A stretch of 64,000 bases of DNA from Amycolatopsis sp. 2-15. Its GTDB lineage: Bacteria > Actinomycetota > Actinomycetes > Mycobacteriales > Pseudonocardiaceae. The notes beneath the pieces were generated by a model that saw nothing but the letters and a program-made list of their open reading frames with translations, did not search any database and had not been told where the DNA came from. Location: assembly GCF_030285625.1 (NCBI RefSeq), contig NZ_CP127294.1:1374001-1438000 (forward strand), given 5' to 3'. The first letter of the stretch is position 1; each line of letters starts with the position of its first letter. Shown here one piece after another: positions 20,274 to 37,350 of this stretch. The translations under genes were made by a program, and so were the position numbers.

Positions 20274-20519
20274 CCGCTGTCACCCGCTGCCACGGTGAAT
20301 CCCCGTGACGAAACCTCGCTTTCGAGTGAGAGATTGGCCGGAATGCACCAGCGTTGTCGGGCGGTTCCGGCCGTCACTTCACACAGTCCAGTCAATCGCT
20401 TCACTACGCTTCCCGGACATAAGCCGTTCGGGTGTATATCGGGCCCGCTAATCTGTGACTCCGATTCCGATCCGCCACCCGGGGGTACCGAGCGGATCCG
20501 TCACAGCCGAGGAAGTCTG

Positions 20520-22448
20520 TTGCCGAGCGAACCCACGCTGCTGTCCGATGTGGCGAGTCTTGCCGTCCTGCTGCTCGTGCTCGGCCTCCCAGGGGTGCTC
20601 ACCGGCCTCGCCGCGGGCCTGCGTGGCTGGGTGCTCGCCGGGCTCACGCCGCTGCTGAGCTACGCGATCGCCGGCCTCGCGGGGCCGTGGACCGCGGCGA
20701 TGGGGCTGCCGTTCAACACGCTCACGTTCTGCGTGACCACTGTGGTCTTCGTGGCGGTCGCGTTCGGACTGAGGCGGCTGACGGTGCGGCGGTGGCCCCC
20801 TGTGGCGGAACCGCGGGTGTGGTCCGCGCGCGGGCAGTGGGGCGTGATCGTGTGCCTGCTGCTGGCGACCGCACTCGGGTTCTACGCCGCCGTGCGCGGT
20901 ATGGGCCACCTAGGCGCGATCGCGCAGGGCGGCGACGCGCCGTATGCGGCCAACGGCGTGCGCTACATCGCGACCACCGGCGACGGCAGCCTGTTCGGCA
21001 TGGGCACGCTCAACTGGTACGGCGACGGCAAGCCACCGTTCTACCCCAACGCGTACCACCTGCTCGCGGCCCTCCAGTACACGCTCAGCGGCGGATCGAT
21101 CCCGCAGACGCTCGACGTGAACACCGTGCTGCTACCGGGGCTTTTGGCTCTGTCGCTGGTCGTGCTGGTCCGCGAGTTCCGCGGCCGCGCGGTGCTGGCC
21201 GGCGCCGCGGCTCTCACGTCGGTGGCGCCGGTGATGAGCATGTACGAGTCGATGAGCCGCGGGCCGCTGTACCCGTTCTTGCTGGGGCTGGCACTCACGC
21301 CGCTGGCAGCCGTGGTGCTGCGGCGCTACCTCGATCGCGTCGCGCCGGACACGGGTTTCCTGCTGCTCGTGTGCGCCGTCGGGCTGTTGTGCATCCACTC
21401 GTCGACGTTGTTCGGTGCGGTCCTGTTCGCCGGGCCACTGCTGCTTCAGCGCTGGGTTTCGCCCGGCGCGCGCTGGCGGCGGTTCGGCCGCGACTTGCTC
21501 GCACTGCTGCCGATCGCGGTGGCCTCCGTGCTGGTGGCGTGGCTGCAGCTGTTCGGCGCCCTCGGCCTGGCCAGCGGCGACCTGCCCTACCTCGGCTGGC
21601 CGAGTGAGTGGCGCGCGACCAACGCGATCGGCGCGTTGCTCGGGTTCCAGCACTGGGAGCCGCACCCGCAGCTGTGGCTCTCGGCCGCGCTGCTCCTGGG
21701 CTTCGTCTTCTTCCGCCGCCTCGGTGACCTGCGGTGGGTCGGCGTGACGGCGCTGATCAGCGGCCTCGCGTACGCCGCCGTCTCATCGTCGAACGCGCCG
21801 CTGGTGATGGCGTTGGCCCGGCCGTGGTGGGACGACCCGTACCGGTTCATCTCCATGGCGATCGTGCCGTTGGCGTTCATCGCGGGCCACGGTGTCGCGT
21901 CGCTGCAGGCGTGGGTCAGTGAGCACCTGCCGCCGCGCGTACCCGCGGTGATTCTGGCGGTTCTGGTGCTGCTGGGCTTCGTGGGCGTCACGAAGGGCCT
22001 GTACGCGACCACGAACGGCGATCGGCTCGCGGTGGGTTACCGCTCCCCCGACCCCCGCAACCAGAACATCACGCCGGGCGAGGAAGCCGGGATGGTCGAG
22101 CTCGGCCACCTCGTGCCCGCGGGCGAGTGGGTCATGAACGACCGGCTCGACGGCTCGGTCTGGACCTACGCGCTCTCGGGTGTCCGCACGGTCGCCGCCC
22201 ACGACGACGGCACCGCGCCGCCCTCGGACGCCCTGCTGCTGGCCCGTCACTTCAAGGAGTACGAGACGAACCCGCAGGTCCGCGCCGCCGTGGCCCGGTT
22301 GAACATCCACTGGGTGTTCCTGGGCAAGGCGGCGGCGCCGCCGGACCCGCCGTACACGTCGCCTGGCCTCGTGGGGATCGCCGAGCTGCCGTTCTTGCAG
22401 CAGGTGTACCGAAATTCGGACGCGGTGATCTACCGGATCAAGCGCTGA
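20520..22448 (+). CDS. DUF6541-family polytopic membrane protein (paralogue 2)
   Basis: A 642-residue paralogue of the protein at 10470-12491, sharing APYAANGVRYIATTGDGSL, NWYGDG, FYPNAYHL, IHSSTLFGAVLF and ARPWWDDPYRF. It has about 14 helices and a soluble C-terminus ending in a VIYRIKR-like strand, as in paralogue 1. The TTG at 20520 is chosen because GAGGAAG lies 5-6 bases upstream and the frame before it has no membrane character. It is divergent from the AftB-like gene. Role in envelope glycan synthesis is inferred. Confidence 0.8.
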   Translation: MPSEPTLLSDVASLAVLLLVLGLPGVLTGLAAGLRGWVLAGLTPLLSYAIAGLAGPWTAAMGLPFNTLTFCVTTVVFVAVAFGLRRLTVRRWPPVAEPRVWSARGQWGVIVCLLLATALGFYAAVRGMGHLGAIAQGGDAPYAANGVRYIATTGDGSLFGMGTLNWYGDGKPPFYPNAYHLLAALQYTLSGGSIPQTLDVNTVLLPGLLALSLVVLVREFRGRAVLAGAAALTSVAPVMSMYESMSRGPLYPFLLGLALTPLAAVVLRRYLDRVAPDTGFLLLVCAVGLLCIHSSTLFGAVLFAGPLLLQRWVSPGARWRRFGRDLLALLPIAVASVLVAWLQLFGALGLASGDLPYLGWPSEWRATNAIGALLGFQHWEPHPQLWLSAALLLGFVFFRRLGDLRWVGVTALISGLAYAAVSSSNAPLVMALARPWWDDPYRFISMAIVPLAFIAGHGVASLQAWVSEHLPPRVPAVILAVLVLLGFVGVTKGLYATTNGDRLAVGYRSPDPRNQNITPGEEAGMVELGHLVPAGEWVMNDRLDGSVWTYALSGVRTVAAHDDGTAPPSDALLLARHFKEYETNPQVRAAVARLNIHWVFLGKAAAPPDPPYTSPGLVGIAELPFLQQVYRNSDAVIYRIKR

Positions 22449-22461
22449 GCGCCGACCGGCC

Positions 22462-23457
22462 TCAGCCGGCGGCGACCTTCAGGCGGCGACCGGCCAGCCA
22501 GGCGCCACCCGCGGTGCCGCCTGCCGTGAGCAGGTCCGCGACGGTGAACATGACCCGCGAGGCCACGGCGAAGGCGGTGGCCTGGCCGACGGTGAGGCCG
22601 CTGGCCGTGAGGACGGCGACCTGGGCCACCTCGCGCACGCCGATGCCGCTGGGCAGGATGAAGGCGAAGGTGCCCACGGTCATCGCGACGGCCATGGCGC
22701 CGACGCAGAGCACGAAGCCGTTGAAGCCCGGCGCGCCGACGGAGTTGGCCAGGAGCCACAGGTGAACGCCCTGCAGGACCCAGGCCAGCGTCGAGGCGCC
22801 GAAGGTCTTGAGCACGACACCCCAGCTCAGGGGGCGTTCGAGGGGCGGACGGCGGAGCAAGCGAAGCACCAGTGAGGTGCCCCAGGTCAGCACGCGCGGG
22901 TGCAGCAGCGCCAAACCGACGGGAATCAGCACGAACAGCCACATCGCACGGGGGCTGTTGCTGAACACCGCCGGCGCGGCCAGCAGCGACACGACCAGCG
23001 CCGACACGACGCCGACGCCGAGCTGGATCAGCGAGCCCGTGAAAATGCGGGCCCGGGCGAGTCCGGCCTTTCGGCCGAGCTCCATCTGCAGCAGGTACGC
23101 CCACACGGAACCCGGCACGTATTTGCCGAGCGAGCCGACCAGGCAGATCTGCGCGCCGCGGATGTAGCCGACGGGTTTGCCGAGGTCGTCGACCAGAACC
23201 TGCCAGCCCCAGGTCGACACCATGATCGCCAGTACGAGCGCGACGAGGCTGAGCACCGACGACTGCCAGGCCACATCGGACAGCGTGTGCCAGAACTCGG
23301 TCCAGTTGTCGGTGAGCGCCTTGGCCGCGAAGACCACCACGAGCACGATCGCGAGCCACCGCGCCACGTCGAGGATCTTGGCCTTGGTCGACTTCGCCGC
23401 CTTCTTCGGCTTCGATGCAGCCGGCGAGTCCTCCTCAGGCGTTCGAACGGTCGTCAC
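22462..23457 (-). CDS. UPF0104 / LPG-synthase-TM-like flippase-type membrane protein
   Basis: A 331-residue protein with about eight helices. Characteristic UPF0104 features are GKYVPGSVWAYLLQMELGRKAG in the first half and the PSGIGVREVAQVAVL loop in the second. The domain is shared with the membrane part of MprF lysyl-phosphatidylglycerol synthase; stand-alone members are thought to move or present polyprenyl- or phospholipids. The N-terminus is a Lys-rich tail. It ends 14 bp from the DUF6541 stop (convergent). Confidence 0.8.
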   Translation of the reverse strand: MTTVRTPEEDSPAASKPKKAAKSTKAKILDVARWLAIVLVVVFAAKALTDNWTEFWHTLSDVAWQSSVLSLVALVLAIMVSTWGWQVLVDDLGKPVGYIRGAQICLVGSLGKYVPGSVWAYLLQMELGRKAGLARARIFTGSLIQLGVGVVSALVVSLLAAPAVFSNSPRAMWLFVLIPVGLALLHPRVLTWGTSLVLRLLRRPPLERPLSWGVVLKTFGASTLAWVLQGVHLWLLANSVGAPGFNGFVLCVGAMAVAMTVGTFAFILPSGIGVREVAQVAVLTASGLTVGQATAFAVASRVMFTVADLLTAGGTAGGAWLAGRRLKVAAG

Positions 23458-23500: not shown

Positions 23501-24745
23501 TCAGGACTGCACCGTGACCAGACGGCTGAACTCGGCAAGCAGATCGTAACCGTCCCAGACGCCCGCGAACGTCAAGGCCGAACCGAACGGCACCACCCGA
23601 TCGACCCCGCGCCCGGCCAGCTCAGTCACGAACTCCACCAGCTCGTCGCGGGTAAATCCGAACTGGGCCACGGTCTGGTCCTTGCGCAGAACCAGCGGCA
23701 CGAGTTCACCCAACGAGGCGAGGTGCGCGTTGGCGAAAGTGCCCGCGCCGAGCCACTCGCGCGGCATCACGGTGGCGTCGGTGAGCTCCAGCGTGGCCAG
23801 GGAATTCCCGTCGAACGAGATCGCGGACACGAGCCCGTCGACGGCCGCGCCGTAGGCCGACACGCGCTTCTGCACGGCCATCGCCGGCTCGGTCACGTGC
23901 TGCTTGGCCTCGAGCACCGACGCCAGCAGCGCCCGGAACTCCTCGCCTGCCACGCGCGCGCCGGCCGCGTCGCCGACCCAGAACACCGCCCGCGGCGACG
24001 AGCACGCCGCCTGGTCGAACCAGTACGAGTCGTTGTAGAACCCCTCGGCCGCGCCTCGCCGCTGCTCCGGCGTGGCCTCCTGCCAGCCGCGCACCGACGC
24101 GACGGCGAACGACGAGCGGTCCGGGAACGTGAGGTCACGCGCGTGCGGCGCCAGCGGGTACTTGCGCAGCGCGGCGACGGAACCATCGCCGCCCCAGATC
24201 ACGCGCAGGTCGGCGGCCAGCGACAACGCGCCGCTGACCTCGTCGCTGCGGTCGTAGGTGACCATGCGCTGGGTCGCGCGGATGACGTCGGCGGCCTCGG
24301 GCGAGACGTCGTCGAGCGCCGCGTTCAGCGCTTCCAGCACGGCCTCGGCCGCCCCGGCCGAACGCGACGACACCCGCACGACGTTCGAGTTCCCCGCCAG
24401 CGCCGAAAGCGCCCACGAGTACACGAAGATCGTGTCGACGTTGGCCGGCGGCACGTGGAACACGAGCCCGCGCGGGAACCGCAGCGAGTCGCCGGAGGTC
24501 TCCAAAGTGGACAGTGCCTTCGCCAGTTCTCCCTTTCGCAGGAAGAAACCCAGCGAGGCCAGCTCCGGGTAACGCCGCGCGAGAGCGGGCGCGAGGAGCT
24601 TGCGCGCGAACTTCGTGACGAACTCGACCACGCGCGGGTCACCCACGGTGAGCCGGCCACCGGACGGTTCGGCGCGCACCTCGTCCAGCAGCGAACCGAC
24701 CTCGACCGGCTCCGCGACCGGGAACCGCTGCTCCAAGGAGGTCAT
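23501..24745 (-). CDS. acyl-CoA/acyl-protein reductase (LuxC family)
   Basis: A 414-residue LuxC-type aldehyde dehydrogenase-fold reductase. The acyl-accepting Cys sits in FDQAACSSPRAVFW (about residue 253), and the family blocks GLVFHVPPANVDTIFVYSW and GNSNVVRVSSR are present. With its LuxE partner it would take an activated acyl group and reduce it to the aldehyde with NADPH. Start at ATG 24745, overlapping the LuxE stop; a frame extending to 24775 is unlikely. Last gene of a six-gene leftward operon that carries its own ACP. No LuxAB luciferase is nearby, so the role is biosynthetic. Confidence 0.87.
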   Translation of the reverse strand: MTSLEQRFPVAEPVEVGSLLDEVRAEPSGGRLTVGDPRVVEFVTKFARKLLAPALARRYPELASLGFFLRKGELAKALSTLETSGDSLRFPRGLVFHVPPANVDTIFVYSWALSALAGNSNVVRVSSRSAGAAEAVLEALNAALDDVSPEAADVIRATQRMVTYDRSDEVSGALSLAADLRVIWGGDGSVAALRKYPLAPHARDLTFPDRSSFAVASVRGWQEATPEQRRGAAEGFYNDSYWFDQAACSSPRAVFWVGDAAGARVAGEEFRALLASVLEAKQHVTEPAMAVQKRVSAYGAAVDGLVSAISFDGNSLATLELTDATVMPREWLGAGTFANAHLASLGELVPLVLRKDQTVAQFGFTRDELVEFVTELAGRGVDRVVPFGSALTFAGVWDGYDLLAEFSRLVTVQS

Positions 24746-25794
24746 GCGGCGGCCCCCGAGAACGTGTCCGAACACCCGCGCGCCTCGGCCTTCGGCAGGC
24801 GCCCCAGCACGGAGAAGTGCTTGCCGGGCCAGTCACCGTCGTCGATGCCGTTGTACACACCGAGATCCTCGGTCAGCAGCACGTGGCCCGGGTACGACCG
24901 CGGCAACGTCGAGACGACCTCGATCACGCCCGGCTTGCCCACCGGCTGCTCCTGCCACGTCTCCGGGTCACGGATCACGACGTCGGCGAAATCCGGGCAG
25001 TACAGGGAGTTTCCCGACGGCCCTTCGAGGAACACGGTGCCGATCTGCTCGATCATCCCGTAGTAGTTGTGGATCCGCGTGAGCCCGGTGTCCTCTTTGA
25101 ACCGACGGCGGAACTCGGTGTTGTCCACGGCGCGGTCGATCAGCTTCTTCCAGCCGCCGGAGTGGATGAGGATGCCGTTGGACAGGTCCAAACCGTGGTC
25201 GCGCGCCACCTCGTAGAGGTAGAGCCACACCATGAACGTGAACCCGAAGATCAGGAACGGCTTGTCCCCGTACTCGGCGAGGAACTTCTTCACGGCCTCG
25301 ACATCGGGCTGGTCGTTCTCGTCGAGCACGTACGTGTGCTTGCGGCCGAAGTTGGCCATGCCGAGCACACCGGCGCCGCGCGCGGAGAACGAGCGGCGGT
25401 TCTTGATGATGCCGATGGTGTCGACCATCAGCATCGGCAGCCGCTCGCCGCCGAGGACCTCCTGCAGCGTCGCGCCGAGCTGCTTGGTCTGCGCGCCCGC
25501 CGCGTCCTTGTCCAGGTAGATGCGCGACGCGCCGGCGCCGGTGGTGCCCGAAGACGTGAGGGTCTTGAACACCTCGTCATCCGGAATGGACTTGAGGTCG
25601 TGGGTCTTGAACATCCGCACCGGCAGCCACGGCAGATCCGCGATCGTGGCGAACGGCGCGTTCGGCGCGATTCCGAGCGACGTCAGGATCCGGTCGTAGC
25701 CCTCGGAGCTCGCGCGGTGGTGCGCGGTCAGCTCCGCGAGCTCGGGAAGCAGCTGTGCCTCCCGCTCGGCCTGCGAGCGCGTGAACACACTCAT
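24742..25794 (-). CDS. LuxE-family acyl-protein synthetase
   Basis: A 350-residue adenylating enzyme of the LuxE/PaaK branch. The AMP-binding motif is LTSSGTTGAGASRIYLD, followed by LIHSGGWKKL, YYGMIEQIGTVFLEG and the acidic LLTEDLGVYNGIDDGDWPG. In luminescent bacteria LuxE activates a fatty acid and passes it to the Cys of LuxC. The LuxC start overlaps this stop, and this start overlaps the ligase stop, so stoichiometric co-production is likely. The substrate may be an acid other than a long-chain fatty acid, given the dedicated ACP and ligase alongside. Confidence 0.87.
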   Translation of the reverse strand: MSVFTRSQAEREAQLLPELAELTAHHRASSEGYDRILTSLGIAPNAPFATIADLPWLPVRMFKTHDLKSIPDDEVFKTLTSSGTTGAGASRIYLDKDAAGAQTKQLGATLQEVLGGERLPMLMVDTIGIIKNRRSFSARGAGVLGMANFGRKHTYVLDENDQPDVEAVKKFLAEYGDKPFLIFGFTFMVWLYLYEVARDHGLDLSNGILIHSGGWKKLIDRAVDNTEFRRRFKEDTGLTRIHNYYGMIEQIGTVFLEGPSGNSLYCPDFADVVIRDPETWQEQPVGKPGVIEVVSTLPRSYPGHVLLTEDLGVYNGIDDGDWPGKHFSVLGRLPKAEARGCSDTFSGAAA

Positions 25795-27200
25795 ACCCGT
25801 CCTTCCAACGACCGGTAGTCGATCTTCCCGCTGGCCAGCAGCGGCACCGTGTCGATCGGCCGCACGTCGAACCCGCTGGTGTGCAGGTGCAGCCGCTCCG
25901 ACAACGCGCGCGACGCGTCCTTGCAGATCGCCTTCGCGCCGTCGCCCTCGGGCAGCTCGGCCCACAGCACGACCTTGTCGCCAGCCGGCACGGCCGCCAC
26001 CACGTCGATGCCCACCGCGGCCTGGCGCACGGCCTGCTCCAGGTCGTCGAGGCTCACGCGGTTGCCGAACACCTTGCCGATGCGCTTGAGCCGCCCGGTG
26101 ATGAACAGGTACCCCTCTTCGTCGAGGTACCCGAGGTCACCGGTGGCGAGCAGCCCGCCGCACTCGTCGCCCGCGGCCAGGCCGGCCTCGTCGTCGGCGT
26201 AACCCATCATCACGTTGGGTCCACGGTAGACGATCTCACCGACGATCTTGGGGTGCGTGGTCTCGACTCCGTCGTCGCGGCGGACGGAGAACGCGCCGCC
26301 GGGCAGCGCCGGGCCGGCGGAGCCGATCTTGTCGGCGAGACGCTCGGCGGGCACGGTGGTCATGCGCGGCGAGGCCTCGGTCTGGCCGTACATCACGTAC
26401 ATCCGGCCGCCGACCGCGCGCATCTTGTCGTTGAACTCCACCACGAGTTCGTCGCGCAGCTTGCCGCCGGCCTGCGTGAGCGTGCGCAGGGTCGGGTACT
26501 TCGCGGGGTCGAACTTGAGGCGCCGCAACATTTCGTAGTGGTACGGCACGCCGGACAGCGACGTGATGCCGTACTCGTTCACCGCGTCCCAGAATCCGCG
26601 GCCGAGCACGCCCGACGCTTCGATCACCACAGTCGCGCCACGCACAAGGTGCGAATTCAGCACCGAAAGGCCGTAGCTGTAGTGCAGCGGCAGGCAGGTG
26701 GGGGCGATCTCGTCGGCGTCGACGTCCAGCACTTCGGCGATGGCCTCGGCGTTGGCGAGCAAACCGTTGCGCGACAGGCGCACGAGCTTGGGGTTGCCGG
26801 TGGAACCACTGGTCGGCAGCAGCACGGCGAGGTCGGGGTGCGGCTTCACGCCGTCGGCCGACTCGCGCAGCCAGTTCTCACCGGACGCCGTGTAGCCCTC
26901 GGGCGCCGGGGCGTCCGGCGCGGCCAGCACGGCGGCGGGCCGGAAGCGCGTGATCAGGCCCGCGAGCACGTCGGCGTCGAGCGCCGGGTCGATCAGCGCC
27001 ACCGCGCGGTGGGCCTCGACGGCGCCGAGGTACCGCAGCACGCTCGCCACGTCGACGGACATCCGCGCGAACAGCACACCCGCCGGCAGCTCACCGAGGG
27101 CGACCGCGACGCGCGCGACCTCCGCGTCCAGCTCGTCGCCCGCCAGTGTGCGGCCCCCGGCCGCGTCGACCAGCCGGGCACCCGCACCCCACAGCGTCAC
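25791..27200 (-). CDS. AMP-dependent acyl ligase
   Basis: A 469-residue ANL-superfamily enzyme. P-loop LLPTSGSTGNPKLVRLS, motif MYGQTEASPRM, hinge region GDLGYLDEEGYLFITGRLKR and the C-terminal catalytic Lys in ASGKIDYRSLEG are all present. It is a stand-alone ligase, most simply one that loads the neighbouring ACP. Start at GTG 27200, overlapping the SDR stop; a longer frame reads into the SDR gene. Middle of the LpxA-ACP-SDR-ligase-LuxE-LuxC operon. Confidence 0.88.
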   Translation of the reverse strand: MTLWGAGARLVDAAGGRTLAGDELDAEVARVAVALGELPAGVLFARMSVDVASVLRYLGAVEAHRAVALIDPALDADVLAGLITRFRPAAVLAAPDAPAPEGYTASGENWLRESADGVKPHPDLAVLLPTSGSTGNPKLVRLSRNGLLANAEAIAEVLDVDADEIAPTCLPLHYSYGLSVLNSHLVRGATVVIEASGVLGRGFWDAVNEYGITSLSGVPYHYEMLRRLKFDPAKYPTLRTLTQAGGKLRDELVVEFNDKMRAVGGRMYVMYGQTEASPRMTTVPAERLADKIGSAGPALPGGAFSVRRDDGVETTHPKIVGEIVYRGPNVMMGYADDEAGLAAGDECGGLLATGDLGYLDEEGYLFITGRLKRIGKVFGNRVSLDDLEQAVRQAAVGIDVVAAVPAGDKVVLWAELPEGDGAKAICKDASRALSERLHLHTSGFDVRPIDTVPLLASGKIDYRSLEGRV

Positions 27201-27928
27201 AGCACCAAGCCTCCGTCGATCCCCAGCACCTGTCCGGTGATGAAGGACGCCTCGTCGCTGACCAGGAAGCGGATCGCCTTCGCGACCTCTTCCGGCTTGC
27301 CGAGCCGGCACAGCGCCGTGTCCTCGATGCGCTCGGCGATGACCTTCTCGCCGAGGTGGGACGTCATGTCGGTCTCGATGACGCCGGGCGCGACGGCGTT
27401 GACCCGGATGTTGTGCCGGCCCAGTTCCTTCGCCGCGGACCTCGCGATGTTGCCCACAGCCGCTTTCGACGCGGCGTACGCCGTCTGGCCGGCGCTGCCG
27501 TTCTCGCCGACGATCGAGGCCAGCACGACGATCGCACCGGACTTGCGCCGGCTCATCACCCGCGACGCCGCCTGCACGGTGTTGATCGTGCCGCCGACGT
27601 TCGTGCGCAGCATGCGGTCGACCAGGTCTTCGCTGATCATGCCCAGCAGCGCGTCCTCGAGGATGCCGGCGTTGGCGACCACGGCATCGAGGGCGCCGTG
27701 CTCCTTGGCCACGCCCCGCACCAGCGACGAGACCGCCTTGGCGTCGGTGACGTCGAGCGCGAGGCCGGCGGCGGCGCCGGCCTCGGCGGCGATCTCCTTC
27801 GCCCGGGCCTCGTCGCGGCCGGTCAGTACCACCGTCGCGCCGGCTTCGACGAGCGCGCGCACCGTGGCCAGCCCGATCCCCCGCGTGCCACCCGTGACGA
27901 GCGCGACGCGACCGGTCAGGTCAGTCAT
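27197..27928 (-). CDS. SDR oxidoreductase, FabG-like 3-ketoacyl reductase
   Basis: A 243-residue classical short-chain dehydrogenase. The NADP-binding motif is TGGTRGIG, the structural motif VANAG, and the catalytic residues Ser (VLASIVGENGS) and YAASK. The C-terminal FITGQVLGIDGGLVL is the FabG signature. Next to an ACP, a role as reductase of an ACP-bound 3-oxoacyl (or related) group is the best inference, which would give a 3-hydroxyacyl chain. It overlaps the ACP gene by 8 bp. Confidence 0.9.
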   Translation of the reverse strand: MTDLTGRVALVTGGTRGIGLATVRALVEAGATVVLTGRDEARAKEIAAEAGAAAGLALDVTDAKAVSSLVRGVAKEHGALDAVVANAGILEDALLGMISEDLVDRMLRTNVGGTINTVQAASRVMSRRKSGAIVVLASIVGENGSAGQTAYAASKAAVGNIARSAAKELGRHNIRVNAVAPGVIETDMTSHLGEKVIAERIEDTALCRLGKPEEVAKAIRFLVSDEASFITGQVLGIDGGLVL

Positions 27929-28193
27929 TCTTCGACCGCAGGTCGGTGACCATGTCCACCGCGACCTTGAAGCTCGACATGTCGATGACCTGATCGGTGT
28001 CGAACTCGACGTCGAACTCGTCCTCGATGGCGGCGACGAGTGCCATGTGGCCGACCGAGTCCCACGCCTCGATGTCGCGGTACTTCAGGTTCTCCACGTC
28101 CACGTCGCCGTCGAGGTCGAGCGCCTCGACGAAGACCTCGCGCAGTTTGGGGGCGATTCCCGGCCCCGCGGCCTGAGCGTCTGACACAGACAT
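27921..28193 (-). CDS. acyl carrier protein
   Basis: A 90-residue acidic four-helix carrier. The phosphopantetheine Ser lies in WDSVGHMALVAAIED, with EDEFDVEFDTDQV following, as in ACPs. Start at ATG 28193 is preferred to a longer frame because the upstream part is basic and unlike an ACP. It is 10 bp from the LpxA-like gene and overlaps the SDR gene, so it is dedicated to this operon and not the primary fatty-acid ACP. Confidence 0.9.
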   Translation of the reverse strand: MSVSDAQAAGPGIAPKLREVFVEALDLDGDVDVENLKYRDIEAWDSVGHMALVAAIEDEFDVEFDTDQVIDMSSFKVAVDMVTDLRSKND

Positions 28194-28203
28194 TTCACAG
28201 CTC

Positions 28204-28923
28204 CTAGTGTTCGTCGCGCGGGCGGGCATCCCACGCTTTGACCAAGGTAGAGAGGTCATCGGGCAGGCCGTCGGCCGGGAGGTCGCCCTTGCCCTTCACC
28301 CACGGCGAGAGGGCTTCGACGGCGGCCTCGTCCAGGCCGCGCCGGGACAGGCCCACGACGTTGACGCCTGTCGCGCGAGCCGGGTTGCCTACGGTGATCG
28401 TGAACGCACCCACCTCGCGGCGGACCGCCGAACCCATGCCGACCATCGCGCCGGGTCCGATGCTGCCGCCCTGGTGCACCACCGTGCTCATGCCGAGGTT
28501 CGCGAACGACCACACGTGGGTGTGCCCGCCGAGCAGCACGTTGCACGCGAGCGTGACCTGGTCGTCGACCACGACGTCGTGCCCGATGTGGCTGCCGCGC
28601 AGCACGTAGCAGTCGTCTCCGAGCGCGGAAGCCCGCCAGGTGCCCTGCTGGATGCTCGTGTACTCGCGAATGCGGTTGCGGCTGCCGATCACCACGCCGT
28701 GGCCGTCCGCGGCCGGGTCACCCGCCGGGGCGCTCTCCCACGCGACGGGGTGCGGGCCGCCGCGGTCCTCGCCCGGCGTGCCGATGGTCACGTGCGGACC
28801 GATCCAGTTGCCGTCGCCGATCCTGGTCGGGCCGACGATCACCGTGTACGGTCCGATCACGTTGTCGTCGCCGAGCTCGACGCCTTCGCCGATGACTGCG
28901 GTGGGGTGGATCCGGTTGGCCAC
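28204..28923 (-). CDS. LpxA-type left-handed beta-helix acyltransferase
   Basis: A 239-residue hexapeptide-repeat protein. The rungs IGEGVELGDDNVIGPYTVI are followed by IGHDVVVDDQVTLACNVLLGGHTHVW and STVVHQGGSIGPGAMVGMGS, which match the LpxA active-site region including its catalytic His in the GGH segment. GNPARATGVNVVGLSRRG matches the LpxA C-terminal GVN-x-x-GL-x-RRG motif. LpxA moves an acyl chain from ACP to a UDP-amino sugar. GTG 28923 is the start. It heads the operon with ACP, SDR and ligase and faces DegT and Gfo/Idh genes across a 200-bp spacer. Confidence 0.85.
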   Translation of the reverse strand: MANRIHPTAVIGEGVELGDDNVIGPYTVIVGPTRIGDGNWIGPHVTIGTPGEDRGGPHPVAWESAPAGDPAADGHGVVIGSRNRIREYTSIQQGTWRASALGDDCYVLRGSHIGHDVVVDDQVTLACNVLLGGHTHVWSFANLGMSTVVHQGGSIGPGAMVGMGSAVRREVGAFTITVGNPARATGVNVVGLSRRGLDEAAVEALSPWVKGKGDLPADGLPDDLSTLVKAWDARPRDEH

Positions 28924-29123
28924 GCTGGTGATCCGTTCCGTTTCGTAAGCCGCTGTCGGGTCCGAGCGGCCTGGGGTCTGGGGCAGGCGGCGGCGCCCGG
29001 TAACGTGTGGCCCGCGTTCACGCAGGGCGGCCGGGCGCAGAACCGGCGGCTCTCCGGCCTCGCGGCCTGAGCGCACTGCACTGTACCGGACGCATCGAAA
29101 TCGCCTGCCGAGAGAGACTGCCG
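28924..29123. promoter_or_regulatory. divergent spacer, likely two promoters
   Basis: This 200-bp gap must contain the promoters for the LpxA-ACP-SDR-ligase-LuxE-LuxC operon and the DegT-Gfo/Idh pair. No convincing -10/-35 or operator palindrome is visible. A GAGAGAG ribosome-binding site lies before the DegT start. The shared position is the only direct evidence that both arms are co-regulated. Confidence 0.4.
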
Positions 29124-30227
29124 ATGATCCCCATTACCGTGGTCGACGTCCGTGACGCGGAAGACCTCGTCGTCGAGGTGCTGCGATCCGGCGCCATCGC
29201 ACAGGGGCCGATGGTCAAGCGCTTCGAGGACGCCTTCGCGCACGTCGCGGGCACGAAGCACGCCATCGCCGTGAACAACGGCACCACCGCGTTGGTCGCC
29301 TCACTGCAGGCGCTGGACCTGGCACCGGGTGACGAGGTGATCACCTCGCCGTTCACGTTCGTCGCGACGCTGAACGCCATCCTCGAGGCCGGCGCCACCG
29401 TCCGGTTCGCCGACATCCGGCGCGACGACTTCGCGATCGACCCCGACGCCGCCGCGGCCATCACCGACCGCACCAAGGTCCTGATGCCGGTGCACCTGTA
29501 TGGCCAGACGGCGGACATGGGCAAGCTCGCCCCGCTCGCCGCCGAGCGCGAGCTGCGGATCATCGAGGACTCGGCCCAGGCCGTCGGCGCTTCCTTCGAG
29601 GGCCGCGCCGCCGGCTCGTACGGCATCGGCTGCTTCTCGCTCTACGCGACGAAGAACGTGACCACCGCCGAGGGCGGCGTGATCACCACCGACGACGACG
29701 TGCTGGCCGACAAGCTGCGCGTGCTGCGCAACCAGGGCATGCGCGCCCGCTACCAGTACGAGATGGCCGGCCACAACTACCGGATGACGGACCTGCACGC
29801 GGCCGTCGGCATCCCGCAGCTGGAGAAGCTCGACCAGCTCACCGCGGCCCGCCAGGCCAACGCGAAGCGGCTGTCGGAGGGGCTGGCAGGCACGCCGGGC
29901 CTCGAGATCCCGCAGGTCCTGCCCGGCCGTGAGCACGTGTGGCACCAGTACACCGTGCTCGTGGGCCCGCACGCGATGCTCTCGCGCGACGAGCTGGCCG
30001 CCTCGCTCACCGAGCGCGGCATCGGCAACGGGATCTACTACCCCAAGATCGTGTTCGACTACGACTGCTACCGCGGCCACCCGCTGATCCCGGGCGCCGA
30101 CGTGAACGACTTCCCGGTGGCCTCGGCCGTCGCGGCGCAGGCGCTTTCGCTGCCGGTGCACCCGCACCTGACCGACGGGCAGCTCGACAAGATCATCGAG
30201 ACGGTTCGCGAGGTGCTCGGCGCATGA
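29124..30227 (+). CDS. DegT/DnrJ/EryC1 sugar aminotransferase (GnnB-like candidate)
   Basis: A 367-residue PLP enzyme of the sugar aminotransferase family. AVNNGTTALVASLQAL, IIEDSAQAVGASFEG and the catalytic Lys in FSLYATKNVTTAEGG (about residue 179) are in order, with the C-terminal WHQYTVLV and GIYYPK. Members transaminate keto-sugar nucleotides. Paired with a Gfo/Idh dehydrogenase and facing an LpxA-type acyltransferase, the best model is a 3-amino sugar nucleotide as in the GnnA/GnnB route; WlbC-like or deoxysugar routes remain possible. ATG 29124. It overlaps the dehydrogenase gene by 4 bp. Confidence 0.88.
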   Translation: MIPITVVDVRDAEDLVVEVLRSGAIAQGPMVKRFEDAFAHVAGTKHAIAVNNGTTALVASLQALDLAPGDEVITSPFTFVATLNAILEAGATVRFADIRRDDFAIDPDAAAAITDRTKVLMPVHLYGQTADMGKLAPLAAERELRIIEDSAQAVGASFEGRAAGSYGIGCFSLYATKNVTTAEGGVITTDDDVLADKLRVLRNQGMRARYQYEMAGHNYRMTDLHAAVGIPQLEKLDQLTAARQANAKRLSEGLAGTPGLEIPQVLPGREHVWHQYTVLVGPHAMLSRDELAASLTERGIGNGIYYPKIVFDYDCYRGHPLIPGADVNDFPVASAVAAQALSLPVHPHLTDGQLDKIIETVREVLGA

Positions 30228-31180
30228 CCCACCGCATCGCCCTCATCGGCACGGGCAACATGGGTTCGCTGCACGCCCGCGTGCTGGCGGCCAACGAGCG
30301 CGTGGACCTCGTCCGCGTGATCGACCCGCGCGAGGAAGCCGGCCGCGCCGTCGCCGAGCGCTATGAGACGCAGTGGACGCCGGAGCTCGGCTCCCTGTCC
30401 GATGTGGACGCCGTGGTGCTCGCGTCGGCCACCGAGGTGCACTACGACCTCGCGCAGGAGATCCTCGGCCAGGGCAAGCCGATGCTCGTCGAGAAGCCCG
30501 TGTGCAACAGCCTCGAGCTGTCGCAGGAGATCGTGGCGCTCTCGGAGCAGAAGGACGTGCCGCTGATGTGCGGCCTGCTCGAGCGCTACAACCCGGCCGT
30601 GATGACGGCCCGGGCGCTGATCAACGAGCCGGTGCACCTCATGGCGCGCCGCCACGGCCCGTACGCGCCGCGCATCAAGACCGGCGTCGCGTGGGACCTG
30701 CTGGTGCACGACGTCGACCTGGCGATCCAGTTCTTCGGCGGCGCCACGCCGGCCCGCGTCACCTCAGGCGCGGGCTACTTCCACCCGAACTCGGTGGAAG
30801 GCGCGGAGGACACCATCGAGACGGTGCTGTCGTTCCCGACCGGCCTGGCCACGGTCTCGGCGTCGCGGCTGGGACAGCGCAAGGTGCGGTCGCTGGTCGT
30901 GTCCGAGCTGGACCGGCTGATCGAGATCGACCTGCTGCGCCGTGACGTGACGATCTATCGGCACGTGTCGCACGACTCCGTGACGCCGGACGGCCTCGGC
31001 TACCGGCAGCAGACCGTGATCGAGATTCCCGAGCTGGTCACCGCGCGCGAGCCGCTGGCCACGCAGCTGGAGCGGTTCCTCGACCTGCTGGAAGGCAAGA
31101 TCGACGCCGACGTGGAGCGCGACCTCATCCTGCCGTCGCACCACGTGGTGGCGCAGGTGCTCACGCAGGCTGCCGCTTAG
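30224..31180 (+). CDS. Gfo/Idh/MocA sugar dehydrogenase (GnnA-like candidate)
   Basis: A 318-residue NAD-dependent oxidoreductase. The Rossmann motif LIGTGNMGSLHARVL opens the protein, the EKP motif is MLVEKPVCNS, and the C-terminal catalytic block includes WDLLVHDVDLAIQFFGG. In the GnnA/GnnB and WlbA/WlbC pathways this family oxidises C3 of a UDP-GlcNAc-type sugar before transamination. Translationally coupled to the aminotransferase (ATGA). The stop abuts the next, opposite-strand stop with no gap. Confidence 0.87.
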   Translation: MTHRIALIGTGNMGSLHARVLAANERVDLVRVIDPREEAGRAVAERYETQWTPELGSLSDVDAVVLASATEVHYDLAQEILGQGKPMLVEKPVCNSLELSQEIVALSEQKDVPLMCGLLERYNPAVMTARALINEPVHLMARRHGPYAPRIKTGVAWDLLVHDVDLAIQFFGGATPARVTSGAGYFHPNSVEGAEDTIETVLSFPTGLATVSASRLGQRKVRSLVVSELDRLIEIDLLRRDVTIYRHVSHDSVTPDGLGYRQQTVIEIPELVTAREPLATQLERFLDLLEGKIDADVERDLILPSHHVVAQVLTQAAA

Positions 31181-31927
31181 TCATTTCGTGAGACGGGTGC
31201 CGTCCTTGCCGTACGCGACCAACGGGGTCAGTACGGCGGGGTCGGGCACTTCGCGCTGGTCGAACCAGAACACGACCACGCTGGGGTCCACGCTCCACAA
31301 CGCGGTCCGTGCCTGCACCGGCTTGCCGTGCACGGTACTGACGATCTTCACGGCGGGCCCGGAGAAATAGCCGTACACGGGCACCCAGGTGCCGCCGGCG
31401 TCGATGCCGCCCGCGGTGGCGTGGAAGCCGAACGAGCGGTCTGCGCCGCGGATCTCGTTGCCGGCGTAGAGCGACAGGTAGCCGGTCTTGGTCTGGACCG
31501 CGGCCATGATGCCGAAGTGCACGTCAGGCAGGGCCGCGTTGTCGTCGATCTTGGTCGCGTAGAAGACGAGCTCGCCGTTGGCGGTCTTGATTCCGGTGTG
31601 GATGACGTCGCCGTAGGGCTGGGTCACCGACTTCGGCGGCTGGTCCATCGTTGTCTGCGGCGGTGTCGCGCTCGACGTCACCGGGTTGCCGGACGGCGGC
31701 GCGGCGACGGGCACCGGCCTCGGCTCGGCCGGCGCACGCAGGGCGACGGCCCCGAACACGATCCCGACGACGGCGGCCACCGCGGCGGCCGCTCCCGCGC
31801 CCGTGGCGATCCTCCGGCGCCGACGGATGCGCCGGCCTTCGGTGATGATCCGCCCCAGGTCGGGCGCGGCGAACGGCTGGTCGGGCTGTTCGCGCAACGC
31901 GGAGCGCAGCTTGTCGAGGTCGTTCAC
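31181..31927 (-). CDS. membrane protein partnered with SigE-type sigma factor
   Basis: A 248-residue protein with a short cytoplasmic N-terminus (MNDLDKLRSAL), a basic stretch RRIRRRRR, one membrane helix (about residues 41-62) and a large outer domain with a Pro/Thr/Ser-rich linker. It has no zinc-finger Cys/His, but its place directly after the sigma gene (4-bp overlap) matches the membrane partners of actinobacterial SigE-family factors. An anti-sigma or sensor role is inferred. The outer domain has no recognised motif. Confidence 0.72.
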   Translation of the reverse strand: MNDLDKLRSALREQPDQPFAAPDLGRIITEGRRIRRRRRIATGAGAAAAVAAVVGIVFGAVALRAPAEPRPVPVAAPPSGNPVTSSATPPQTTMDQPPKSVTQPYGDVIHTGIKTANGELVFYATKIDDNAALPDVHFGIMAAVQTKTGYLSLYAGNEIRGADRSFGFHATAGGIDAGGTWVPVYGYFSGPAVKIVSTVHGKPVQARTALWSVDPSVVVFWFDQREVPDPAVLTPLVAYGKDGTRLTK

Positions 31928-32454
31928 CGCCCGCTCCCTCCGATCAGCACGTCTTCCGGCCCGGCGTCCACCCGCAGCTTCGCGAGCGCCCGCGAGTTCG
32001 TGCTCTTGACGGTACCCACTGACACGCCCAGTTCATCGGCCACCGCCTGTTCCGGCAGGTCGAAGAAGTGCCGGAGTACCACCACGGCCCGCTCGCGGCC
32101 CGTCAGCCGCGCCAGCGCGGACGTCAGCCACTCGCGCTGCGTCACGGCCTGCGCGACGTCCTGGCTCGTCGGCCGCTCTGGCACTTCCTCGGACGCGTAC
32201 TCGCGCAGCGGGCGGCGCCAGCCGTCGATCACGTGGTTGACCAGCACAGTCCGGGCGTACGCGTAAGCGTCCTTGCGACGCACGCGCGACCACGCGGCGT
32301 ACGTGCGGGTGAAGGCGGTCTGCGCGGCGTCCTCGGCCTGGTGGCGGTCGCCGGTCAGCAGGTACGCCGCGTGCGTGAGCCGGTTCGACGAGGCCTGCAC
32401 GAACTCGGCGAACTCGTCGTCACTGCGCGCCACCCGCGTGCCCCCGATCTCCAC
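31924..32454 (-). CDS. SigE-family ECF RNA polymerase sigma factor
   Basis: A 176-residue sigma factor. Region 2 shows FVQASSNRLTHAAYLLTGDR, then AEDAAQTAFTRTYAAW and YARTVLVNHVIDGWRR; region 4 has LTGRERAVVVLRHFFDLPEQ and a helix-turn-helix in ADELGVSVGTVKSTNSRAL. LTGDR and the VKSTNSRAL ending are typical of the actinobacterial SigE-family ECF group. GTG start at 32454 or GTG 32433. The downstream membrane gene overlaps its stop. Confidence 0.88.
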   Translation of the reverse strand: MEIGGTRVARSDDEFAEFVQASSNRLTHAAYLLTGDRHQAEDAAQTAFTRTYAAWSRVRRKDAYAYARTVLVNHVIDGWRRPLREYASEEVPERPTSQDVAQAVTQREWLTSALARLTGRERAVVVLRHFFDLPEQAVADELGVSVGTVKSTNSRALAKLRVDAGPEDVLIGGSGR

Positions 32455-33141: not shown

Positions 33142-33756
33142 TTACCCGCCGAAGTCCCCCGCCGGGGAGCCCCAGCCGGAGGGGTCGTCCGACAGCGCGC
33201 GGCGGCGGGCGTTCTCCGTCCGGACGCGTTCCACTTCGGACTGGATGTACTCCTCGTCGTAGCGCTGGAAGACGCGCGCGGGGTTGCCGGCCACCAAGGT
33301 GCGCGGCGGGACGTCCTTGGCCACCACCGAGTTGGGCTGCACGGTGGCGAAGTCGCCGATCGTCACGCCGGCCATGATGACGACCAGGCCGCCGATGAAG
33401 CAGCCCTTGCCGATCTTCACGGGTTTGCGCTCGATCAGATCGCTGCCGGAGTGGTTCTGCAGCGTCATGTTCGCGAGCCAGCTCGAGTGCGTGAAGATGA
33501 GCGTGTTGAGGCCGATGCTGGTGTGCTCGCCGATCTCCAGGCCGCCGCTCGCGTCGAGGGTCGCGCCTTCGCCGATCCAGCAGTGCTCGCCCATGGTGAG
33601 GTTCTCGGGGCTCACGATCTTCACGCGCTCGCGCACGCGGCACGACTCGGGCAGCCCGAAGAAGCGGGCCCGCTCGGCGTCGTTCATGTACTGCGAGACA
33701 AGGTCGTTCAGGATCATCGGCCGCAGGCGGTTGCTGCGGTCGTCATCGAAGAACAT
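33142..33756 (-). CDS. hexapeptide-repeat acyltransferase (sugar O-/N-acetyltransferase type)
   Basis: A 204-residue left-handed beta-helix protein. Rungs are visible from VSPENLTMGEHCWIGEGATLDASGG through IGKGCFIGGLVVIMAGVTIGD and FATVQPNSVVAKDVPPRTLVAGNPARV, the common C-terminal signature of maltose/NodL/CatB-like acetyltransferases; the catalytic His is probably in THSSWLANM or nearby. ATG 33756. The start overlaps the end of the glycosyltransferase gene by 14 bp, so it likely decorates the same glycan. Confidence 0.83.
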   Translation of the reverse strand: MFFDDDRSNRLRPMILNDLVSQYMNDAERARFFGLPESCRVRERVKIVSPENLTMGEHCWIGEGATLDASGGLEIGEHTSIGLNTLIFTHSSWLANMTLQNHSGSDLIERKPVKIGKGCFIGGLVVIMAGVTIGDFATVQPNSVVAKDVPPRTLVAGNPARVFQRYDEEYIQSEVERVRTENARRRALSDDPSGWGSPAGDFGG

Positions 33757-34939
33757 CGTGATCCGCCACCAGTTTCGAGAATACGCGCAGGTGCTCCTCG
33801 GCCACGACATCGAGGCCGAAGTTGGCCTGGACCATGGCACTTTCGCGCTGCGCGAGCCGCGAACGGAGCTCCGGGTCGTCCAGCAGCGACAACACGGTCT
33901 CCTGCACCGCCTGGGCGTCGTCCGGGCGCACCAGCAGGATGTTCTCGCCGTTGCGCAGCTCGATGCCCGGGTAGTTGTCCTCCGTGACCGACGCGATGGT
34001 GGCCGTGCCGGACAGCATCGCTTCGAGCGACGCGGTGCCACAGCCGCCGTTGAGGTCGTGGGTCACGATGTCGGCCGCCGCGAAGTACGCCGGCACGTCT
34101 TCCTTCGGCACCGCACCCGTCACGACCAGGGCTTCGGCCACCCCGAGCTCTTCGGCGCGCTTGAGGAACGCGTCGTGGTAGACGCGCCCGACGATCACCA
34201 CGCGCACACCTGGGTGCCGTTCGAGGATCGCCGGCAAGGCCTCGATCAGCGGCAGCCGGTTGCGCAGCGGGATCACGTGGCCGAGAGACACGATGACGGG
34301 CCCGTCACCCAGCTCCAGCTCCGCTCGCACGTCCTTCGTGACCGGCTTGGCGAAGTTGCCCGTGTCCACGGCGATCGGGAAGTACTCGGAGTTCGCGTCG
34401 CTCGTGCCGTAGCGCTCGACGCAGTAGTCCACGCCGAGCTTGTCGAGGATGACGTAGCGCGGCCGGATGTACTTGAGCACCGGCTTGACCAGCACCGCGT
34501 CGAGCATCCGGAACACGCGCGAGTACAGCTTGTTGTCGCTGATCAGGAGCGTGTGGATGGTCAGTAGCACGGGCAGCTTGTGGCGCCGCGCGTAGAACCC
34601 GGCCAGCCACGACAGGTCGAAGAACTGGCCGTGCAGGTGCACCGCGTCGGGCTTGAACTCGTCCAGCAGCCTCCGCAGCCGCCGCCAGTTTCCTGGCTTG
34701 AGCGACGCGAAGCTCAGGTCGAAGTCGATGGACAGGCCGAGCTGCGGCATCTTCGCCGCGGGCAGCCGCACGATGCGGTAGCCGTCGCGCTGCTCGTCGG
34801 CCGGCGCGTCGCCGTAGGCCGCCGTGATCGCGAGGACCTCGTGGCCGGCCGCCGCGTACTCGCCCGCCAGCGACGCCGACATGTGGGCGCTGCCGCCCAC
34901 CCGGGGCGGGAAGAAGTTGTTCACCACCGCGATGCGCAT
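33743..34939 (-). CDS. GT4-family glycosyltransferase
   Basis: A 398-residue GT-B enzyme. The N-terminal MRIAVVNNFFPPRVGGSAH, DAVHLHGQFFDLSWL, the donor-site region SLGHVIPLRNR and the E-x7-E-type motif in GGCGTASLEAMLSGTATIA are present. It likely adds a sugar from a nucleotide donor to a polyprenyl-linked glycan at the cytosolic face. ATG 34939 starts the conserved first strand and has AAGGA upstream. An in-frame ATG at 34975, preceded by GGAGG, would add 12 residues and would be the start coupled to the micro-ORF repeats; both are possible. Confidence 0.88.
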   Translation of the reverse strand: MRIAVVNNFFPPRVGGSAHMSASLAGEYAAAGHEVLAITAAYGDAPADEQRDGYRIVRLPAAKMPQLGLSIDFDLSFASLKPGNWRRLRRLLDEFKPDAVHLHGQFFDLSWLAGFYARRHKLPVLLTIHTLLISDNKLYSRVFRMLDAVLVKPVLKYIRPRYVILDKLGVDYCVERYGTSDANSEYFPIAVDTGNFAKPVTKDVRAELELGDGPVIVSLGHVIPLRNRLPLIEALPAILERHPGVRVVIVGRVYHDAFLKRAEELGVAEALVVTGAVPKEDVPAYFAAADIVTHDLNGGCGTASLEAMLSGTATIASVTEDNYPGIELRNGENILLVRPDDAQAVQETVLSLLDDPELRSRLAQRESAMVQANFGLDVVAEEHLRVFSKLVADHDVLR

Positions 34940-34962
34940 CGCACGTCCTTGGGCCGGGCCCG

Positions 34963-35088
34963 CGGCGGAGCTCATGCCGCCTCCACGGGAAAGAGTGCGT
35001 CGGCGGAGCTCATGCCGCCTCCACGGGAAAGAGTGCGTCGGCGGAGCTCATGCCGCCTCCACGGGAAAGAGTGCGTCGGCGGAGCTCA
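34963..35088 (-). repeat. 38-bp tandem repeat (3.3 copies) encoding chained micro-ORFs
   Basis: Three perfect 38-bp copies (34963-35000, 35001-35038, 35039-35076) and a 12-bp fourth part lie between the epimerase stop and the glycosyltransferase start. Read on the minus strand, two copies each give a complete ORF MSSADALFPVEAA (complement of 35010-35051 and 34972-35013). Each has a GGAGG ribosome-binding site, and each stop overlaps the next start as ATGA. The last copy leads to the in-frame ATG 34975 of the glycosyltransferase (MSSAAGPAQ). The seed was probably the TGAGCTCCGCC shared by the epimerase end and the glycosyltransferase start. Confidence 0.9.
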
Positions 35089-36015: not shown

Positions 36016-36069
36016 GGTCGCGGTCTCTCCTCGGTCGGCGGTGTCTTCGGCGGTCACGGTCTTCGGGCT

Positions 36070-37215: not shown

Positions 37216-37350
37216 CCCCACTCCAGTTTGTTCCTCGCACCACCACACGTTGCGCTAGCTCGCCCCGAAGTGTAGAGACGCGCTCCGCCGAGCCGGGCGT
37301 GGGGACGAAACCTGCCGGTAACGGGCGGGCGGAGCGCCTAGTCTTGCCGC

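Follow-up and report, generated by a model that had tools for sequence, protein, structure and literature searches.

A candidate pathway for an N-acylated 3-amino sugar, joining an LpxA-type acyltransferase to a LuxE/LuxC cassette, in a probable surface glycan locus of Amycolatopsis

The GnnA/GnnB/LpxA route of Acidithiobacillus and Leptospira provides UDP-GlcNAc3N for an N-acyl lipid A. An eight-gene locus of Amycolatopsis sp. 2-15, at 23501-31180 of the window analysed here (the whole stretch of 64,000 nucleotides, positions 1,374,001 to 1,438,000 of contig NZ_CP127294.1), resembles this route in combining a Gfo/Idh dehydrogenase, a DegT aminotransferase and an LpxA-type acyltransferase with an acyl carrier protein (ACP). 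It departs from it in its Gram-positive host without LpxC, in an added cassette of five genes, in the short acyl group that is predicted, and in its setting within a glycan locus instead of among lipid A genes. The cassette consists of the ACP, a FabG-like short-chain dehydrogenase/reductase (SDR), an acid ligase, LuxE and LuxC. Its last two members share family membership and the conserved cysteines with the luminous LuxC/LuxE fatty acid reductase (7xc6), but they lie far under the equivalog cut-offs, have no LuxD or luciferase in the operon, and are coupled to a ligase, an ACP and a sugar acyltransferase.

Genes of these five kinds also occur in enterobacterial and Aeromonas flagellin glycosylation islands, for which the sections of the two reports drawn on here suggest a liposugar (PMC4875605, PMC7874193); the gene preceding those sets is often PseH- or NeuD-like, whereas here it is LpxA-type and accompanied by DegT and Gfo. 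In the relevant part of a further report the five genes, together with transketolase genes, are described in Dickeya (PMC7575072). Sections of reports on the flagellins of Shewanella and A. caviae had no bearing on the cassette. The O-antigen R-group genes of Flavobacterium psychrophilum are also similar: a dedicated ACP, a ketoacyl reductase and an N-acyltransferase of PglD type are proposed to place on an amino sugar a hydroxyacyl group that varies between strains. They differ in using ketosynthases, and "lux" and "ligase" are absent from the main text as available (PMC6519341). The five-gene set and, as general background, the GnnA/GnnB/LpxA route are thus known separately. Among the matches listed from the open-licence literature, no Gram-positive glycan locus was found to couple the cassette to an LpxA-type enzyme, nor was an exchange of its acyl genes found, and a search for LuxE with O-antigen and ACP listed only the flagellin-island paper. 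Kept through most of the genus, the locus brings together, among the glycan genes of a Gram-positive, a transferase of LpxA type, the DegT/Gfo pair and a cassette with LuxE and LuxC.

The eight genes form two divergent arms with 200 bp between them. The leftward arm is one compact operon of the LpxA-like gene and the five acyl genes (28923 to 23501), and the rightward arm (29124-31180) carries DegT and Gfo/Idh; adjacent genes within the arms overlap by a few bases, except for the 10 bp spacing between lpxA and acp. With gene coordinates refined, and start codons chosen by us, the locus reads as follows.

23501-24745, minus strand: LuxC-like acyl (thioester) reductase with an ACSSP cysteine (PF05893, 95 bits, above cut-off)
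24742-25794, minus strand: LuxE-like acyl-protein synthetase with a C-terminal RGCSD cysteine (PF04443, 155 bits)
25791-27200, minus strand: AMP-forming acid ligase (PF00501, AMP-binding, 146 bits)
27197-27928, minus strand: FabG-like SDR reductase (adh_short_C2, 206 bits; TIGR01830, 236 bits, its cut-off of 298 not reached)
27921-28193, minus strand: acyl carrier protein with a DSV motif (PF00550, PP-binding, a marginal 21.0 bits against a cut-off of 20.8)
28204-28923, minus strand: LpxA-type acyltransferase of 239 residues with a GTG start (Hexapep, 65 bits; LpxA profiles)
29124-30227, plus strand: DegT/DnrJ/EryC1/StrS sugar aminotransferase (PF01041, 381 bits)
30224-31180, plus strand: Gfo/Idh/MocA sugar dehydrogenase (GFO_IDH_MocA, 76 bits; best NCBIfam model NF040723)

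All eight genes and the divergent layout, as listed in an earlier sequence-only reading of this DNA, are borne out by translation and by Pfam, whose cut-offs are exceeded by every protein, if only narrowly by the ACP. The window ACP was not among the matches listed in a whole-genome PP-binding search; genes at the same cassette position in other bacteria are annotated as acyl carrier proteins. LuxE is present in a single copy in the host genome (one contig of 10.05 Mb), and this, with the same gene order in 20 loci of the genus, places the eight-gene arrangement beyond chance. Most named proteins with the closest similarity to LuxE, the LpxA-like protein or Gfo belong to Amycolatopsis.

From the protein families, we consider it probable that the locus makes a sugar of UDP-GlcNAc3N type that bears a short, probably hydroxylated N-acyl group and is destined for a surface glycan, and not for a lipid or an antibiotic. 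The Gfo/Idh enzyme would oxidise a UDP-amino sugar (UDP-GlcNAc being the most likely) at C3, and DegT would then aminate this position to give a UDP-2,3-diamino sugar. In parallel the ligase may load a small acid onto the dedicated ACP, LuxE and LuxC may activate a carboxylate and reduce it to an aldehyde, and the FabG-like SDR may convert this aldehyde to a hydroxyl; the LpxA-type enzyme would transfer the acyl group from ACP to the 3-amino group as an amide, and neighbouring glycosyltransferases would build the product into a surface glycan. The N-acylated 3-amino-sugar nucleotide proposed in the sequence-only reading fits these families; of the two destinations offered there, an envelope glycan or a lipid, the former is favoured and the latter appears less likely.

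The sequence relationships of the acyltransferase are closest to LpxA. Its best matching PDB chains are LpxA enzymes (2e-31), followed by 8e62 (1.3e-30), a short protein of LpxA-like type titled UDP-N-acetylglucosamine acyltransferase, and the PDB scores are 112.5 bits for LpxA, 44.7 for VioB and 27.3 for QdtC. The LpxA models NF003657 (163.7 bits, cut-off 226) and TIGR01852 (153.5 bits, cut-off 231.05) miss their equivalog cut-offs but score higher than the NeuD/PglB/VioB model (84 bits, cut-off 160.8), so that by profile score the protein does not group with the enzymes of NeuD/QdtC type. Both motifs reported earlier, GGH and GVN-x-x-GL-x-RRG, are in the translation, and H122, H125, H144, H160, Q161, N198, R204 and R205 (E. 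coli LpxA numbering) are kept; the catalytic H125 is present in all 61 sequences aligned, that is, in the window protein and 60 fetched loci. The position equivalent to the G173 ruler is Met in the window protein and in 56 of the 61 overall, as it presumably is in the C10-specific LpxA of P. aeruginosa, in which chains are limited to about C10. LpxC had no match in the host genome (a control matched in 4 of 14 genomes), and lipid A is therefore not expected; an LpxA-type acyltransferase with a dedicated ACP thus does stand beside a DegT and Gfo/Idh pair in a genome without LpxC. Gene order, together with the co-divergence of FabG and LpxA described below, suggests acyl-ACP as the donor.

For the sugar-forming pair, the best NCBIfam model of the Gfo/Idh protein is UDP-GlcNAc 3-dehydrogenase (NF040723, 141.7 bits against a cut-off of 450), and its closest solved chain is 7bvj (E 1.2e-22), which we take to be GnnA. 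The DegT translation has an ATKN region with the presumed pyridoxal phosphate lysine. The GnnA/GnnB assignment made earlier is favoured by the best model and weakened by similarities that stay under the curated cut-offs. UDP-GlcNAc is an inferred substrate, since the Gfo score is below its cut-off and the position aminated by DegT is not readable from sequence.

For the cassette enzymes, LuxC and LuxE miss the equivalog cut-offs of the luminous enzymes (36.8 of 750 bits and 57.2 of 550 bits, respectively). The cysteine of the LuxC ACSSP motif, which we take to be catalytic, is invariant in five of five aligned sequences, and LuxC had no matching solved chain in the PDB search; a profile of five cassette proteins matches the LuxE of 7xc6 with the cysteine column aligned. 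The closest solved chains to the ligase are an oxalate-CoA ligase, a nonribosomal peptide synthetase domain and a 2-succinylbenzoate-CoA ligase, with malonyl-CoA ligases, luciferases and 4-coumarate ligases as further near relatives. No ketosynthase is found among the operon genes. Because of this, of the Met at the ruler position, and of the oxalate- and succinylbenzoate-CoA ligases among the nearest solved relatives, a short, hydroxylated acyl group seems likelier than one of lipid type. The "purpose-made acyl chain" of the sequence-only reading is accordingly narrowed to a dedicated short acyl-ACP, which appears likely, and a lipid-type chain becomes the less likely form; likewise the locus has its own ACP, ligase and reductase in that all five genes are present, but the set is not peculiar to it and is found across phyla. 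A dicarboxylic acid, held on ACP at one end and reduced to an alcohol at the other, would explain why both the ligase and LuxE, each able to activate a carboxylate, occur beside a thioester reductase and an SDR. We put forward this reduction by LuxE/LuxC, and a dihydroxybutanoyl product, as hypotheses; they give a concrete chemical proposal for a five-gene set that the reports drawn on here left as a possible liposugar.

LuxE was found as a single copy in every genus genome searched (80 of 80), and the LpxA-like protein has a match in 71 of 80 genus, 83 of 249 family and 10 of 296 class genomes, some of the family and class matches being weak or partial. In the 20 genus loci, picked by us among the 71 with an LpxA-like match, all eight genes are in the same order without exception, so that the genes do stay together in these relatives. 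Among the 249 family genomes, 49 have both the LpxA-like protein and LuxE, 34 the LpxA-like protein only, 4 LuxE only and 162 neither (Fisher p 1e-24, kinship ignored); with weak matches and the genus excluded the corresponding numbers are 32, 24, 1 and 175. Gfo was found in 18 of 21 family genomes searched. Altogether 78 loci were fetched (60 + 18, some genomes being represented twice and the draw not being random) and scored for presence at 50% identity, or 45% for ACP and 40% for LpxA. The cassette occurs with DegT, Gfo and the LpxA-like gene in 34 of these, with DegT and Gfo and no LpxA-like gene within the stretch in 13, and with the LpxA-like gene only in 2; another 12 have the LpxA-like gene, DegT and Gfo with zero cassette genes at threshold, and 17 have fewer parts, some being truncated by stretch ends. 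At these identity thresholds the five cassette genes are all present or all absent in 73 of the 78.

Within the genus the acyl end of the pathway, unlike the sugar genes, changes between loci. The nine genus genomes without an LpxA-like match, and another genome of the family (G088), carry an ATP-grasp-like protein with a HAD phosphatase between acp and degT (L221:12768-14410, and the same place in L222 and L231-L238). The ATP-grasp-like protein has a PylC-like N-terminal domain (36.3 bits, cut-off 27), scores under the cut-off of the ATP-grasp model, and matched no solved chain in the PDB search; at the lpxA position such an enzyme fits amide formation, although ATP-grasp enzymes catalyse other ligations too. 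Loci were accordingly typed as A (LpxA at least 87% like that of the window), B (73-80%) or C (ATP-grasp/HAD), types A and B being drawn by us from LpxA identity. In quick trees of 30 loci, types A, B and C each form one clade by FabG (support in the SH-like approximate likelihood ratio test 98, 93 and 88; minimum 2 changes), and 6 type changes are needed on a tree built from the flanking proteins (LuxC, LuxE, DegT and Gfo); by its flanking genes the window is closest to L090, which is of type B. Between FabG and LpxA the correlation of pairwise protein distances is 0.88, and between the other genes and LpxA it is 0.35-0.52. Among 21 loci with the background removed, the FabG-LpxA partial correlation is 0.83, a value reached in 0 of 5000 permutations, and those of the other genes range from -0.19 to 0.17.

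Recombination breakpoints were traced in one type C locus, L234. Its DNA is 89-96% identical to that of L071/L072 over the flippase, LuxC, LuxE and the C-terminal part of the ligase, 70-84% identical over the N-terminal part of the ligase, FabG and ACP, and 88-98% identical over DegT/Gfo, with unrelated genes at the lpxA position. This mosaic shows the pattern of a recombination that replaced the acyl-specifying end of the pathway, and L238 has the same mosaic by nearest neighbours. The exchanged end would comprise FabG with the acyltransferase or the ATP-grasp/HAD pair and, in the traced case, also ACP and the N-terminal part of the ligase. It thus appears that related species have repeatedly swapped their acyl-capping genes, as in serotype change elsewhere; since the exchange spares the sugar genes, the acyl decoration would change in the manner of a serotype, a meaning that we infer. 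Such natural swapping of acyl-specifying genes makes the surface structure of a large antibiotic-producing genus testable.

In other bacteria 85 loci were fetched through LuxE (the best 80 from a contig scan and 5 from plasmids), including loci of Proteobacteria, Firmicutes, Bacteroidota and one Deinococcus. All five cassette genes are present in 75 of them, mostly collinear with some members on the opposite strand. The gene before the cassette, picked mechanically and obtained for 75 of 84 loci, matches the PseH model in 31 of 75 and the NeuD model in 10 of 75 (E <= 0.001); downstream neighbours, scanned at 47 of 68, show no dominant family (GT2 8, GNAT 7, hexapeptide 5). Both split-transketolase genes lie within or near the cassette in 10 loci (L134, L170, L183, L185, L188, L194, L206, L208, L210 and L212), which suggests a different acyl group or chain extension there. 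A Rhizobium gene and four other hexapeptide genes beside cassettes were considered as LpxA-type and rejected, all five being best matched by NeuD, with one of the proteins under the NeuD cut-off; among those tested, the LpxA-type partner is thus found only in actinobacteria. The Rhizobium plasmid gene (L134:5254-5853), annotated as an acyl-ACP--UDP-GlcNAc O-acyltransferase, scores 144 bits with NeuD (cut-off 160.8) and 50 bits with LpxA and is probably misnamed. The LuxE DNA of Pluralibacter had no match in an E. coli collection.

A wider proposal, which we regard as tentative and rather doubtful, is that the LuxE/LuxC cassettes across phyla constitute an unrecognised acyl-ACP pathway, in which one end of a dicarboxylate would be reduced to give a hydroxylated short acyl group (e.g. 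dihydroxybutanoyl from malate), serving interchangeable N-acyltransferases of PseH, NeuD/PglD and LpxA type, with the lineage swaps in Amycolatopsis amounting to serotype-like switching. A lead on the acyl group comes from Aeromonas strain AH-3, where, in the pertinent sections of the report, the cassette adjoins pseH and the linking sugar is 376.14 Da, plus a further unknown moiety of 102 Da (PMC7874193). Replacing one acetyl of pseudaminic acid by C4H6O3 gives a computed mass of 376.148 Da, with 102.032 Da for the acyl alone, and dihydroxybutanoyl, expected from malate under the dicarboxylate scheme, has the formula C4H6O3. Against this assignment, O-methylglyceroyl has the identical formula, and in the part of the report on strain AH-1 (glycan 403 Da) that was available a legend mentions a 376 Da sugar too (PMC4691044). 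We rate dihydroxybutanoyl as the acyl group of AH-3 as a lead of low probability.

A number of results weigh against the favoured interpretation of an acyl-ACP-dependent route to an N-acylated 3-amino sugar. The LpxA-like and Gfo scores are both under curated cut-offs. D74 and K76 of E. coli LpxA are Pro and Ala in the window protein, with Lys76 in none of the 61 sequences, so that sugar binding may differ from that of E. coli LpxA. The DegT sequence cannot separate 3- from 4-aminotransferases; the solved chains that match it best are perosamine synthetases, and the solved relatives presumably act at differing sugar positions. Met173 occurs in relatives without the cassette too; it therefore favours a short chain and is uninformative on the cassette, and as a marker of the acyl group it was rejected, being shared by most sequences, cassette or none. 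NCBIfam long-chain acyl-CoA ligase models rank high for the ligase. After removal of background, ACP distances carry no LpxA signal (0.01) and those of lig, luxC and gfo correlate only weakly with LpxA (0.15-0.17). Five of the 78 loci have an incomplete cassette at the thresholds: L118 is cut by a stretch end, L229 has FabG at 49%, just under threshold, and the sets of L226-L228 are divergent, an ACP match being absent from two of them. In seven of the 78 an LpxA-like gene stands without DegT/Gfo and without the cassette at threshold, although one of these genomes, G260, carries DegT/Gfo and the cassette in another stretch (L223). Lastly, three of the 21 family genomes have no Gfo match at E 1e-40, and in three of the 18 positive ones Gfo is remote, at a distance of about 275 or 319 kb or on a separate contig.

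If the LpxA-type enzyme instead transferred a medium or long 3-hydroxyacyl chain, the product would be a glycolipid or a lipid-A-like anchor in a Gram-positive. The LpxA profile similarity and the kept catalytic His agree with this, as do the fatty-acid-type FabG and ACP, the long-chain ligase models and the fact that LuxC/LuxE of luminous bacteria handle long chains; with no operon ketosynthase, a Met at the chain-length ruler, nearest solved ligases that include those for oxalate and succinylbenzoate, and no LpxC, however, we judge a lipid product unlikely. Similarly unlikely, in our estimate, is that LuxE/LuxC supply an aldehyde for some other step, e.g. N-alkylation or chain extension, with the LpxA-type enzyme drawing on an acyl-ACP of other origin. 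The split-transketolase genes of some cassettes in other phyla would act on an aldehyde, and LuxC/LuxE distances track the flanks and not the FabG/LpxA pair; against this stand the all-or-none occurrence of the five genes in 73 of 78 loci and their joint presence, mostly collinear, in 75 of 85 loci elsewhere, a set that was itself fetched via LuxE.

The acyltransferase could also be an acetyl-CoA-dependent N-acetyltransferase giving a diacetamido sugar, with the cassette serving another glycan residue. Such an arrangement would account for the 12 of 78 loci having the LpxA-like gene and DegT/Gfo without cassette, and 8e62 is a short protein of LpxA-like type in the PDB, but lpxA adjoins acp in the eight-gene loci, FabG and LpxA co-diverge, and the profiles prefer LpxA over NeuD, and we again give it little weight. 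An acylated sugar of an antibiotic or other specialised metabolite was the alternative raised in the sequence-only reading, and it is suggested by the actinomycete host and by the occurrence of DegT and Gfo/Idh pairs in antibiotic sugar pathways. Since LuxE is present, as a single copy, in 80 of 80 genus genomes and glycan genes lie at the locus, this product is very unlikely, and the antibiotic-sugar reading was rejected on its genus-wide presence; the neighbours (WsfD-type transferase, DUF6541 protein, flippase-like protein and GT4) are largely co-conserved, and no polyketide or peptide synthase is found among those scanned (15035-37248). The acylated surface-glycan sugar is the preferred product, and the five cassette genes are found together inside a glycan locus.

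The surrounding genes include a membrane protein gene that adjoins the module in the 20 genus loci and, on the other side, a second sugar cluster that occurs in most of them.

22462-23457, minus strand: membrane protein of the LPG_synthase_TM family, a possible glycolipid flippase (PF03706, 65.5 bits)
33142-37248, minus strand: second sugar cluster, with a hexapeptide acetyltransferase, a GT4 glycosyltransferase, an SDR epimerase/dehydratase and a DegT aminotransferase

The cell-wall-polymer literature yielded nothing on an Amycolatopsis surface glycan among the matches listed. At 17290-22448 are a WsfD-type hexose transferase (NF051875, 297.8 bits, cut-off 80), another membrane protein and a DUF6541 membrane protein, and many relatives have these genes together with the locus. 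A sigma factor, assigned by Pfam, and a probable anti-sigma protein, the latter a guess, are encoded at 31181-32454, in the space that separates the module from the second sugar cluster; the pair is present in 16 of the 20 genus loci. Within the second cluster a perfect 38-bp tandem repeat of 3.3 copies (34963-35088), at or just before the start of the GT4 gene, occupies the whole gap up to the end of the epimerase gene, and slippage in this repeat could alter expression.

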